Source: Akkermansiaceae bacterium (GTDB lineage: Bacteria > Verrucomicrobiota > Verrucomicrobiia > Verrucomicrobiales > Akkermansiaceae). From it: a stretch of DNA of 64,000 nt. This document shows positions 16,500 to 20,640 of the stretch, one piece after another. The first letter of the stretch is position 1. Each line of letters opens with the position of its first letter. The notes beneath the pieces were generated by a model that was given only the letters and a program-made list of their open reading frames with translations, was not told where the DNA came from and made no database searches. The position numbers and the translations under genes are program-made. The stretch lies in contig JAGYIT010000017.1 of assembly GCA_018402445.1 (NCBI GenBank), forward strand, positions 1 to 64,000, in the 5' to 3' direction.

Positions 16500-16805
16500 T
16501 CACGCGACCAGAGGCTTCACCCGCGCCCGGATCGCCGTTGCATGCTGAAACTGAACCACCCGGAGATCGTAGCGGCTTTGGAGGTTGATCCAGAACTGCG
16601 GATCCATGCCGAAGAACGTACCCAAGGTGAAGGCCACCTCCGCATTGATGGCACGTTTGCCTTTGACGATCTCGTTGATTGTTGAGCGGGGAATCCCCGT
16701 GCGCCGGTAAAGTTCGCTTTGGCTGAGTTGATACGCATCGAGAAACTCCTCTTTAAGAAGGCGTCCCGGTGTGACGGCAAGAATGGCTTTTTGTTCACGT
16801 GTCAT
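16500..16805 (-). CDS. higA: HigA-family antitoxin (XRE HTH)
   Basis: TPGRLLKEEFLDAYQLSQSELYRRTGIPRSTINEIVKGKRAINAEVAFTLGTFFGMDPQFWINLQ. Confidence 0.9.
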   Translation of the reverse strand: MTREQKAILAVTPGRLLKEEFLDAYQLSQSELYRRTGIPRSTINEIVKGKRAINAEVAFTLGTFFGMDPQFWINLQSRYDLRVVQFQHATAIRARVKPLVA

Positions 16806-16817
16806 TGTTCTGAAAGT

Positions 16818-17114
16818 TCAGTGGTAGTCGGTGATTTCGACATCGAAGGCATTTCCCTCACTCCAGCGGAAGCAGATGCGCCATTGATCGTTGATGCGAA
16901 TGCTGTGCTGGCCGGAGCGATTTCCCCTCAGAGCCTCCAGACGATTGCTCGGCGGAACTCGTAGGAAATCGAGGGTTGTGGCGGCATCCAGCATGTTGAG
17001 TTTGGTGATGGCACGATGGAGAAGATCGGCGGGGAAACGTGTCCTCTGGCCGCGCCAAAGCTTTTCCGTTTCCTTATCACCGAAACTTTCGATCACCTCC
17101 CCAATGTTCTGCAT
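16818..17114 (-). CDS. higB: HigB/RelE-type toxin
   Basis: IESFGDKETEKLWRG...NRLEALRGNRSGQHSIRINDQWRICFRW...DVEITDYH; immediately upstream of higA. Confidence 0.9.
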   Translation of the reverse strand: MQNIGEVIESFGDKETEKLWRGQRTRFPADLLHRAITKLNMLDAATTLDFLRVPPSNRLEALRGNRSGQHSIRINDQWRICFRWSEGNAFDVEITDYH

Positions 17115-17162: not shown

Positions 17163-20100
17163 TCATTTTAACAAAGTACTCCCAGCCGCCGCTTTGATCT
17201 CCTCCAGCTTCGTGCGATCCGGAGCCGCGCCCCTTGCCTGATCCGGCTTGCCGCCGCCTTTGCCGCCGGCGATGGCGGCGAGGTCGCGGAGGAGGTCGCC
17301 GGCTTTGAGGCCTGCCGCTAGCGCATCGGCTCCACAGTGCACGGCGAGGTGGAGTTTCTCGCCGTCATCGACAATGAGCAGCGCGGGCCCGGCGAAATTC
17401 TTTTTCTTCAGGCCGTTCTGGAGTTCCTGGAGTAGGGACGCATCGGACTCGAAAGAGACGACGATGGGGTCGCCCTTCGCGATGAGATCCGCGAGGCGCT
17501 TCGTCGGCGAGCGCGGCGGCTTGAGCGGATTGGATTTTCTTGATCCGTTTCTCTGCCTCGATGGCGGCATCCTTGGTTTCCTCCAACGTTCTGATGCCGT
17601 GGGCGTAGGTCGCGTTCAATTCGCCAATGTCCGCGCGGCCAACAAGCATCGCACCCATGATGTGAGGGAATTCGTTCACAAAAATCGTCTCCCCGCCCAG
17701 CTCGGCGAGCTTGGCGTTGGCGGTTTTGAGCTTTTCCATCGCGGCCTTGAGATCCGCGTCCCATCGCTCGACGTTTTCGCGGATCAGTGACCACGCGGCA
17801 TCGCCGCAAGCTGCTTCGATGCGGCGCACGCCGGAGGCGATGGCTCCCTCGGACTTGATTTTGAAAAGGCCGATCTCCGAGGTGTTGCGGACGTGGGTGC
17901 CGCCGCAAAGTTCCATCGACGGGCCGTCGAGCTGGTTCGCATGCCCGCCGATCTGCACGACGCGGACGGTGTCTCCGTACTTGTCGCCGAAGAACTGCAT
18001 GATGTCCGTGCGGTGCTTGATGTCCGCGTGTTTCACCTCTGTCCATGAAACCTGCATCCCTTGCTTGATCGCGCCGTTCACCATCTCCTCCATCTCGGCA
18101 AGCTGCTCCGGTGTGACAGCGGCGCTGTTGAAATCGAAACGCAGGCGATACTCATCCACCGAGGAACCCTGCTGCGCGGCGTCCTTTGAAACGACCTCAT
18201 GCAGCGCCCAGTGGAGAAGGTGCGTGGCGGTGTGGTGGGCTTCGATGGGGCGGCGGCGTTGTATGTCTAGCTTGAGTGTGACTCTGTCGCCCGGAGAGAT
18301 TGATGATTGTTGATCCGACTTCGCTGAAGCTACGACGGACAGGTTGTTGATTTCGGATTGTTGAATAACCAGGGCGCGGGCTTTGCCGATTTGTTGGACT
18401 CCGGTGATGGGGATGCCGTTGAGCGTTCCCGTGTCGCCGGCTTGGCCGCCCATCTCGGCGTAGAAGACGGTTTTGTCGGTGATGACGAAGAGCGCATCTT
18501 CCTGCGGGTGGATTTCCAGGACGGTGGCTTCGCATTCGTCGGAATCGAAACCGAGGAAATCGGTGACCGCTTCGGTGGAGATGTCGAGGGCGCGGACGAT
18601 GTTGGATTTTTGGGCGGCGCGGGCTTTTTCGCGTTGCAGCTCCATGAGTTCCTCAAAACGGGGCATATCGACGGTCAAGCCGAGTTCGGCGCAGAGGAGT
18701 TCTGTCAGGTCAACGGGAAAGCCGAAGGTATCGTAGAGCTCAAAGGCGTTCTCGCCAGAGAACGGGGAGCACACGCGCCCTCGCGTGTCGCAGGAGACGC
18801 CCACGTCTCCTGCATGGTCCGCGTCACGAACAAACTCCCTACACCATGTCCATGCGTAATCATCCGCTTGCGGAACGAGCTTTTCCACGACGGGATTGAA
18901 TATGATATAATCATATTTCTCCCTGAGATCCGACTCACTGCGGATCAACCGGTCAAACCATTCCTTCTCCCATAGATGCTTGATGTTATCATTCTTAAGA
19001 TCCATTCGGCGTTGCTTGAGGATCTTGTGGGAAGTGACGGATTTGATCGGCTGGAGGATTTCCGTGAGGGTGAAAAACACCGGCTTGGAATCCGCATCAT
19101 AGGATTTCACCTGGGGCTCGATGAGGAGGTGGACATGATCCGGCATGACGCAGGCGGCATAGAGGTGGATCTGGCCGAGCTTGCGGGCGTGGAGGATGGA
19201 ATCGAGGACGATGCTGCGCTCGGCTTCGCTCAAAACGTCACGGTCAAGCGTGGTGAAAGTGACCATGTATTTCCCCCAGGGACGCTCGAAATGGGGGAGA
19301 TTGCGGCGGGTGTAGGTGGGTTCGGAGGCTTTTTGTGGATTCGGGTCGGCATGAGGCGAGGGCGCCTCATGCGACACGCGAGGGCGCGTGTGCTCCCCGA
19401 CCGCTTCTTCGAAGCGTTTTAATCCCCGATCCAATGTCTGGTTGAAGCTCGCCTCCTCCTGCGCCAGCGTCTGCTCGATCACCGCCTGCCGCGATTTCAG
19501 TTCCGGAAACACCCCGCCCATTTCCTCCACGAGCGTCGGCACCAGTGCGGCGAAGAACGGCTTTTCTCCCGAAAAACCGAGCTGGCGACCATATCTAACA
19601 GCCCTCCGCAGGATGCGCCGCAGGACGTAGTTGCGCCCGTTATTTCCCGGCATGATTCCATCCGCGATGGAGAAGCTGAGCGTCCGCAAATGATCCGCGA
19701 TCACGCGGAAGGCGATGGCCGTTTTCATCTCCTCGGTGAAGGCGGAGCGGTCGGCGCCGAGTTCCGGGTAGATGTTCACATAGGTCTGGCCGCTGAGTTC
19801 CTCCAGCTTGCGGAAGATGGGGGTGAAGACGTCGGTGGCGTAGTTGCTCGGCTTGATCGAGAAATCCGTAAAACCCTTGGTGTTCTGGATAATCGAGCAG
19901 GCGCGCTCGAAGCCCATCCCGGTGTCCACGTGTTTCGCGGGCAGCTCGCGGAAGGTGCCGTCGGCCTCGGCGTTGTATTGGATGAAGACGAGGTTCCAGA
20001 TCTCGATGCAGAGGTCGGAGTCGTTGTTGACAAGGTTGCGTCCGGTGACGGGATTGCCCTCGGGGGTGAGATCCACGTGGAGCTCGGAGCACGGGCCGCA

Positions 20101-20640
20101 GGGACCGGTTTCGCCCATCATCCAGAAGTTGTCCTTCACGTTGCCGTGCACGATCTGGATTTCCGGATCACAGCCCGCCGCGCGGAAAAGTTCCGCCCAG
20201 ATGTCGTAGGCCTCTTGGTCGAAATTCCCCGGATCACCCTCCTTCGGCGCGTAAACCGAGGCGTAGAGACGATGCGCGGGCAGCCCCCAGCGCCCGACGA
20301 CGAGTTCCCACGCCCAAGTGATCGCCTCTTTCTTGAAATAGTTTCCGAACGACCAGTTCCCCAGCATCTCGAACATCGTGTGATGGTAGGTGTCGTAGCC
20401 GACATCCTCGAGGTCGTTGTGCTTGCCGCCCGCACGGATGCATTTCTGGGTGTCGGCGGCGCGCGGCGGATCGTAGGGGGCTTTCTCCACGCCGAGGAAA
20501 TACGGCACGAAGGGGTTCATCCCCGCGTTCGTGAAAAGCAGGCCCGGCGACTGCGGCAACAGCGAGGCGGAGGGCACGATGGTGTGCTGTTTCTCACGGA
20601 AGAAATCGAGGAAAGATTGGCGAATCTCGGAGGCGGTCAT
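17163..20640 (-). CDS. alaS: Alanyl-tRNA synthetase interrupted in frame by a RAYT element, with an apparent single-base frameshift near the 3' end
   Basis: N part MTASEIRQSFLDFFREKQHTIVPSASLLP..., C part GENAFELYDTFGFPVDL...HHTATHLLHWALH...CGGTHVRNTSEIG. ORF 17365-20796 is stop-free across the insert; the C-terminal GLKAGDLLRDLAAIAGGKGGGKPDQARGAA continues in another frame (ORF 17163-17570). Confidence 0.92.
18763..18813. repeat. REP end 1: outer hairpin ACACGCG-CCCT-CGCGTGT plus inner hairpin GCAGGAGACG-CCCA-CGTCTCCTGC
   Basis: Direct reading of sequence; inner stem 18790-18813. Confidence 0.9.
19349..19399. repeat. REP end 2: inner hairpin GCATGAGGCG-AGGG-CGCCTCATGC plus outer hairpin (inverted copy of end 1)
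   Basis: Direct reading; inner stem 19349-19372. Confidence 0.9.

Follow-up and report, generated by a model that had tools for sequence, protein, structure and literature searches.

Introduction

REP-associated tyrosine transposases (RAYTs) are regarded as domesticated transposases that copy REPINs; they occur in single copy and are inherited vertically, and their exact function and persistence are unexplained (PMC8049555). For TnpA_REP, HUH/Tyr action on REP hairpins as single-stranded DNA has been shown (PMC8266576). REPs located inside genes, including tRNA synthetase genes and the verrucomicrobium Opitutus terrae, are also known, as are Rickettsia RPEs, and RAYT-like genes with flanking terminal inverted repeats have been described as TIRYTs/TIRtrons (PMC3733652). 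A survey of TnpA_Y1 proteins dropped a few over-long proteins as gene fusions or annotation errors (PMC6006769).

Here, we describe a RAYT located inside the alanyl-tRNA synthetase (AlaS) gene of an Akkermansiaceae bacterium, in a stretch of 64,000 nucleotides analyzed as a whole (the window). Our search of the open-access literature retrieved no paper coupling a RAYT with alanyl-tRNA synthetase or with RecG/MetH and none on housekeeping enzymes with an entire RAYT among their domains. We consider it likely, judging from the sequence comparisons presented below, that the locus is a working REPIN-RAYT system in which the transposase lacks a separate gene and is maintained as a guest domain, not spliced out, of AlaS and other indispensable enzymes.

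Results

An Open Reading Frame Spanning alaS and the Insert

On the minus strand of the window, one frame stays open from an ATG at position 20640 to a stop at position 17365 and spans both alaS and the insert, as a first-pass annotation, which had proposed one stop-free AlaS-RAYT-AlaS frame, had it. AlaS residues 1 to ~413 are followed by the insert, which is located just before the xLYDTxGFPxDLT block, and AlaS resumes at FSGENAFELYDTFGFP. The features of the locus are as follows.

19400..20640, minus strand: 5′ part of alaS with the class II catalytic domain (AlaS residues 1 to ~413, as far as ...LDRGLKRFEEAV) (TIGR00344; PDB AlaRS alignments break here)
18763..19399, minus strand: the complete element of 637 bp, which reads through both ends in the AlaS frame (bounded by inverted repeats; junctions common to relatives)
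19349..19399, minus strand: palindromes of the upstream end, which form two hairpins and are translated as GEHTRPRVSHEAPSPHA (z −4.7 for the DNA fold; the outer palindrome recurs elsewhere in the genome)
18832..19314, minus strand: RAYT transposase core, 161 aa, chimera residues 443–603 (NF047646; AlphaFold pLDDT 90.8; PDB 4er8 TnpA_REP, E 4.7e-8)
19129..19137, minus strand: HUH motif H-V-H, residues 502–504 (first H in 115/117, second H in 117/117 guest RAYTs)
18907..18909, minus strand: candidate catalytic tyrosine, residue 578, in YIIFNP (aligned to DYIYINP of 4er8; Y in 114/117 guest RAYTs)
18763..18813, minus strand: downstream terminal palindromes, two hairpins, translated as ...GDVGVSCDTRGRVCSP (DNA fold z −4.1)
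17496..18762, minus strand: 3′ part of alaS, still in frame, with the xLYDTxGFPxDLT block and the editing domain (HHTATHLLHWALH ... CGGTH) (frame reading, NCBIfam)
17163..17494, minus strand: AlaS C-terminal (C-Ala) tail, out of frame in the assembly (one extra base near 17495)

When compared with NCBIfam, the chimera matched the alaS equivalog model TIGR00344, with catalytic and editing domains, at 726 bits (cut-off 457). Relative to the related loci L004/L005, one extra base near position 17495 shifts the frame after chimera residue ~1048, so that the last ~110 AlaS residues, the C-Ala domain, are found in another frame (17163–17494) and the domain is not intact in the window's AlaS. Since the closely related species are in frame there, we treat the frameshift as a sequencing error or a private mutation; it lies outside the insert and leaves it untouched. 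The earlier statement that AlaS motifs are intact on both sides of the insert holds for the catalytic and editing parts but not for the frameshifted C-terminal tail.

A second intact alaS, which together with decay of this copy would have refuted the reading of the first-pass annotation, was searched for, and none is present in the window genome (3.53 Mb, 17 contigs, 87.8% complete). Of the 17 genomes with a RAYT in AlaS, most of which are at least 90% complete, 16 have the AlaS-RAYT as their sole alaS. The exception, G005, has an additional alaS with 53% identity, which lies on another contig of a bin that is 4% contaminated.

Downstream of alaS, at window positions 16500–17114, there are two adjacent minus-strand ORFs of 101 and 98 aa that, by a reading of the sequence only, resemble an antitoxin of the HigA type and a toxin of the HigB/RelE type, respectively.

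The Inserted Element and Its Transposase Domain

The insert matches the NCBIfam model for REP-associated tyrosine transposases, NF047646, at 87.2 bits (cut-off 80; chimera residues 450–597), and its sole PDB sequence match is TnpA_REP 4er8. The RAYT domain was modeled by AlphaFold with a pLDDT of 90.8; the top fold match was 4er8 bound to a REP hairpin, followed by ISDra2/IS608 TnpA, which indicates a Y1 HUH fold. Both an HUH motif and a single tyrosine of the YIxxNP type are present, and the domain is not a free-standing gene with its own start and stop. In the model of the entire chimera, which is weak overall (pTM 0.45, residues 20–95 poor) and was used solely for the order of folded RAYT and disordered linkers, the RAYT is folded at ~450–603 between disordered linkers 418–451 and 604–624 that are mostly translated palindromes. 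There was no intein model among the NCBIfam matches, and the insert is bounded by REP palindromes.

The element had been given as 637 bp without a stop in the AlaS frame, and this is confirmed: it supplies no stop codon in that frame, and its bounds are set exactly by 51-nt inverted repeats that are 90% complementary (18763–18813 and 19349–19399). Each end contains two neighboring hairpins (fold z −4.1 to −5.6, either strand). The GTAG-type tetranucleotide found 5′ of the hairpin in classical REPs is absent, and the ends read GGGGAGC...GCTCCCC. Because RAYT-like genes with TIR-type ends are known (PMC3733652), the transposase is best classified as a RAYT-family member and not as a GTAG REPtron.

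The Same AlaS Site in Related Species

The same insert is present at the same place in 13 other species (G008, G360, G005, G269, G001, G013, G011, G030, G300, G162, G285, G031 and G026), whose RAYT cores are 76–93% identical and one of which, G162, belongs to another genus. We refer to the 14 species with this AlaS insert, the window species included, as clade A. The possibility of misassembly, raised in the first-pass annotation, is ruled out by the presence of the insert, with the same junctions, in these 13 other assemblies, which come from several projects. Also ruled out is another of its reservations, that the insert might be a normal AlaS domain in all relatives, as the site is empty in many congeneric species (e.g., G017, G007, G028, G004 and G022).

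Other RAYT lineages, about 45–51% identical, are located at the same place in G006, G036, G365, G287, G173 and G142, as well as in G058 from another family; these lineages occupy the loop independently. At the AlaS site of G019, there are repeats without a transposase, and in G023 a single in-frame palindrome; both are likely footprints of loss.

The AlaS loop before LYDT contains unrelated inserts of ~20–130 residues at L042, L044, L045, L046 and other loci (e.g., in G043, G056, G012 and G018), and it is therefore a general insertion hot spot in these AlaS proteins.

Besides the RAYT, AlaS of L222 and MetH of L209 contain extra in-frame insertions that resemble translated REPs (GSARASRA..., GSTRASRVADRALAVS...).

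Copies of the Terminal Palindrome

The outer palindrome of the element, ACACGCGAGGGCGCGTGT, has 34 copies in the window genome (at most 2 mismatches) versus 0 for a reversed control. Most of the copies form inverted pairs ~92 or ~128 nt apart with the same GGGGAGC...GCTCCCC edges as in the AlaS element. The AlaS RAYT is thus flanked by REP palindromes that are repeated genome-wide as inverted pairs, as in REPINs, at a copy number that is low for a REPIN population. None of the other RAYTs of the window genome is flanked by a ACACGCGAGGGCGCGTGT-type palindrome.

The number of copies outside alaS follows the insert, with a median of 14 in clade-A genomes versus 0 in 21 other genomes in which alaS could be read (p = 2.3e-5). 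Another five carriers have between 4 and 27 palindrome copies in all. An exception is G018, in which there are 16 copies and the insert is absent. G035 has 21 copies, and its alaS is interrupted by a contig end.

Outside the window, at G000:C5:96960 (L103), a lone REP palindrome is located in frame within an aconitase-like frame of 577 aa.

RAYTs inside Other Enzymes

A search of 387 genomes of the order (E ≤ 1e-10) retrieved relatives of the AlaS RAYT in 36 genomes, exactly one in each: 22 in AlaS, 13 in RecG and 1 weak match (G051) in a frame of 608–623 aa. There was no ordinary free-standing RAYT gene among these 36 matches. The 79 best loci in GTDB contigs with named records, nearly all of them labeled Verrucomicrobiota and one Kiritimatiellaeota, were distributed between the main AlaS site (37), RecG (22), MetH (9, at two sites), a second AlaS site (4), ThrS (4), PriA (1) and CarB (1), with a single locus being free-standing; host enzyme identities were checked with NCBIfam. 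Since the query patterns were built from embedded RAYTs, the proportion of these best relatives that are in frame inside housekeeping enzymes, 78/79, holds for this RAYT subfamily and not for all RAYTs.

At L179 (G051:C39), a 608-aa frame that contains DVGVPSIEDDADE repeats in tandem ends in a more distant RAYT; it looks as though a repeat had been amplified as coding sequence.

A multicopy insertion sequence in the window genome is ruled out, there being no other close copy, and the remaining Y1 domains belong to other families. A second RAYT family is found in the window genome, in frame inside MetH (G000:C5, 808.8 kb) and IspG (G000:C4, 289.5 kb). The first of these loci, outside the window at G000:C5:808400–809629 (L034), is a RAYT in the cobalamin-dependent methionine synthase MetH, with an open frame of 1154; at least 12 relatives have an occupied site, and in four others (G017, G015, G048 and G002) the matched region contains one stop. 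The second, also outside the window at G000:C4:289519–290130 (L035), is in frame in IspG/GcpE (841 aa), and relatives' matches are in frames of 809–941 aa.

We are inclined to think that there is a phylum-wide class of resident transposons without a gene of their own, which are permanent, unspliced and catalytically competent guest domains of AlaS, RecG, MetH, ThrS, CarB, PriA and IspG, move between enzymes by in-frame insertion and run REPIN populations from inside them.

Descent, Movement and Selection

On a RAYT tree of 90 rows, the host-site label requires 15 changes versus 40.9 when shuffled (0 of 200 shuffles were as low), and if only the starred branches are counted, the main AlaS site must still have changed at least 6 times. 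Gains and losses at the AlaS site are indistinguishable on the RAYT tree. The elements thus descend mostly in place and yet have repeatedly switched host enzymes; a strictly single origin of the AlaS insertion is not supported. On the AlaS gene tree, from which 14 loci were left out on motif grounds, carriers are clustered but patchy among non-carriers, and at least 3 gains or losses are forced.

Within clade A, RAYT distances correlate with AlaS distances (Mantel r 0.70, 0/9999). The dS of the RAYT core is not below that of AlaS, and recent horizontal homing within the clade is therefore not supported.

Over the 14 clade-A species, the RAYT core has a median dN/dS of 0.095, as compared with 0.072 in the N-part of AlaS and 0.19 in its C-part, which indicates that the embedded transposase is under purifying selection. 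The terminal (REP) regions behave differently: their dN/dS is 0.93, and dS is 0.03–0.29 versus 0.12–2.2 for the core (30 closest pairs), suggesting that the element ends are conserved as DNA, at the nucleotide level. Homogenization of the ends with other REP copies may contribute to the low dS. A core conserved at the protein level between ends conserved at the DNA level is the pattern that should be expected of a working transposase and its binding sites. One clade-A species has lost the catalytic tyrosine (Y to S, L010/L206), and so transposase activity does not appear to be always kept.

Expression and Proposed Mechanism

There is no intervening stop between the RAYT and the AlaS C-part. 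The 40 codons that precede the invariant LPHFE motif lack an in-frame ATG in 61 of 76 guest RAYTs, and in 18 guests they contain no ATG, GTG or TTG at all. Translation as part of the host enzyme is therefore, by sequence, the only general possibility, which agrees with the first of the two routes given in the first-pass annotation, translation within AlaS or from an internal start. Its suggestion of a selfish element surviving as an extra protein domain also gains support, namely from the 14 species, the independent reuse of the loop, the other host enzymes, purifying selection and the cognate REP copies.

We propose that the gene is translated as one AlaS of ~1150 aa, from which the RAYT would be looped out before the LYDT block on two flexible REP-encoded linkers. 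The tethered RAYT would bind and cleave hairpins as single-stranded DNA via its HUH and Tyr residues and would copy REPINs, and rarely the whole element, to new places. Since the element is open in frame at both ends, a large essential enzyme could take it up in frame in a tolerant loop, and the insertion would still be viable. Residence in an essential gene would provide guaranteed expression and also protection from loss, because a deletion or frameshift of the element would kill the host gene too. Selection would thus leave RAYTs of this group almost exclusively in indispensable enzymes. The strong bias to enzymes may be due either to the choice of target or to survival.

Discussion

The locus can be explained in other ways. 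One would see in the insert a dead passenger, namely an old in-frame transposon insertion that has simply been tolerated as an inert loop. The loop is indeed tolerant, as relatives have unrelated inserts of ~20–130 residues in it, repeats without a RAYT (G019) or a solo palindrome (G023), and the catalytic tyrosine is lost in one carrier. An inert loop is, however, unlikely given a transposase dN/dS of 0.095 across 14 species with substantial dS, retention of the HUH/Tyr residues in 114–117 of 117 guests, the conservation of silent sites in the ends and the presence of cognate REP copies. Domestication by the host could account for the fact that the RAYT has long been retained, under purifying selection, in one and the same AlaS loop; the RAYT domain would then serve AlaS in tRNA or ssDNA binding or in regulation, i.e., the moonlighting synthetase that the first-pass annotation had also considered. 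We find no support for it: the same RAYT group resides in the unrelated enzymes RecG, MetH, ThrS, CarB and PriA, the insert is dispensable to close relatives, which are without it, the DNA ends are conserved and REP copies track the insert. We rate this explanation as rather improbable.

It is very improbable that the RAYT is a separate protein, translated from an internal start and merely sharing DNA with alaS. A GTG is located 39 codons upstream of the core in 14/14 clade-A species, though inside the palindrome, but the missing stop means that any internal product would be RAYT plus AlaS C-part, and the scarcity of upstream start codons in the guests (no ATG in 61/76, no ATG/GTG/TTG in 18) argues against it as well. 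An assembly artifact or a decaying extra copy of alaS could be suspected from the one frameshift near 17495 in the window's gene and from the 87.8% completeness of the genome, which leaves room for a missed second alaS in the window genome alone; as the insert recurs with the same junctions in 13 other assemblies, which stem from several projects, and as 16/17 RAYT-AlaS genomes, most at least 90% complete, have a single alaS, there is hardly any chance that this is the explanation.

For a functional transposase housed in AlaS, residence in an indispensable enzyme would offer a concrete, testable reason for RAYT persistence, in that loss or frameshift kills the host gene. Large enzymes repeatedly tolerate a foreign domain of ~210 residues in the same loops. 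Enzyme-embedded RAYTs may be hidden in other phyla, since transposases of excessive length were removed from at least one survey as fusions or annotation errors (PMC6006769). The lifestyle inside enzymes appears to be new; the transposase itself belongs to the known RAYT family.

The AlaS RAYT shares with REPIN-RAYT systems and TnpA_REP (E. coli TnpA_REP, PDB 4er8) the transposase family NF047646, the fold, the HUH and Tyr residues, single copy, long-term inheritance and flanking hairpin palindromes that recur elsewhere as inverted pairs. Unlike them, it has no start or stop codon of its own, being open only within AlaS or another enzyme, its ends are without GTAG and its REP copy number is modest. 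As in TIRYTs/TIRtrons, the ends are long, partly self-complementary inverted repeats without GTAG that belong to a repeat family; TIRtrons, however, are described as transposase genes plus flanking repeats (PMC3733652), whereas the AlaS RAYT is an open-frame enzyme domain. Rickettsia RPEs and intragenic REPs are likewise in-frame palindromic repeats in housekeeping proteins, also in the same phylum and with tRNA synthetase and repair gene hosts, but they are repeats of 20–82 residues without a transposase (PMC3733652), and AlaS carries a complete transposase as a folded domain.

Enzyme-embedded RAYTs may be viewed as a non-spliced counterpart to inteins. Inteins and homing elements are in-frame guests of conserved indispensable enzymes, recurrent at the same site and so protected from loss. 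The AlaS RAYT is likewise an in-frame guest of an indispensable enzyme that recurs at the same site; in contrast to inteins, it is predicted to be unspliced and to stay in the mature protein, it occupies a variable loop and not the active site, and its chemistry would be that of single-strand HUH/Tyr enzymes and not of double-strand homing.
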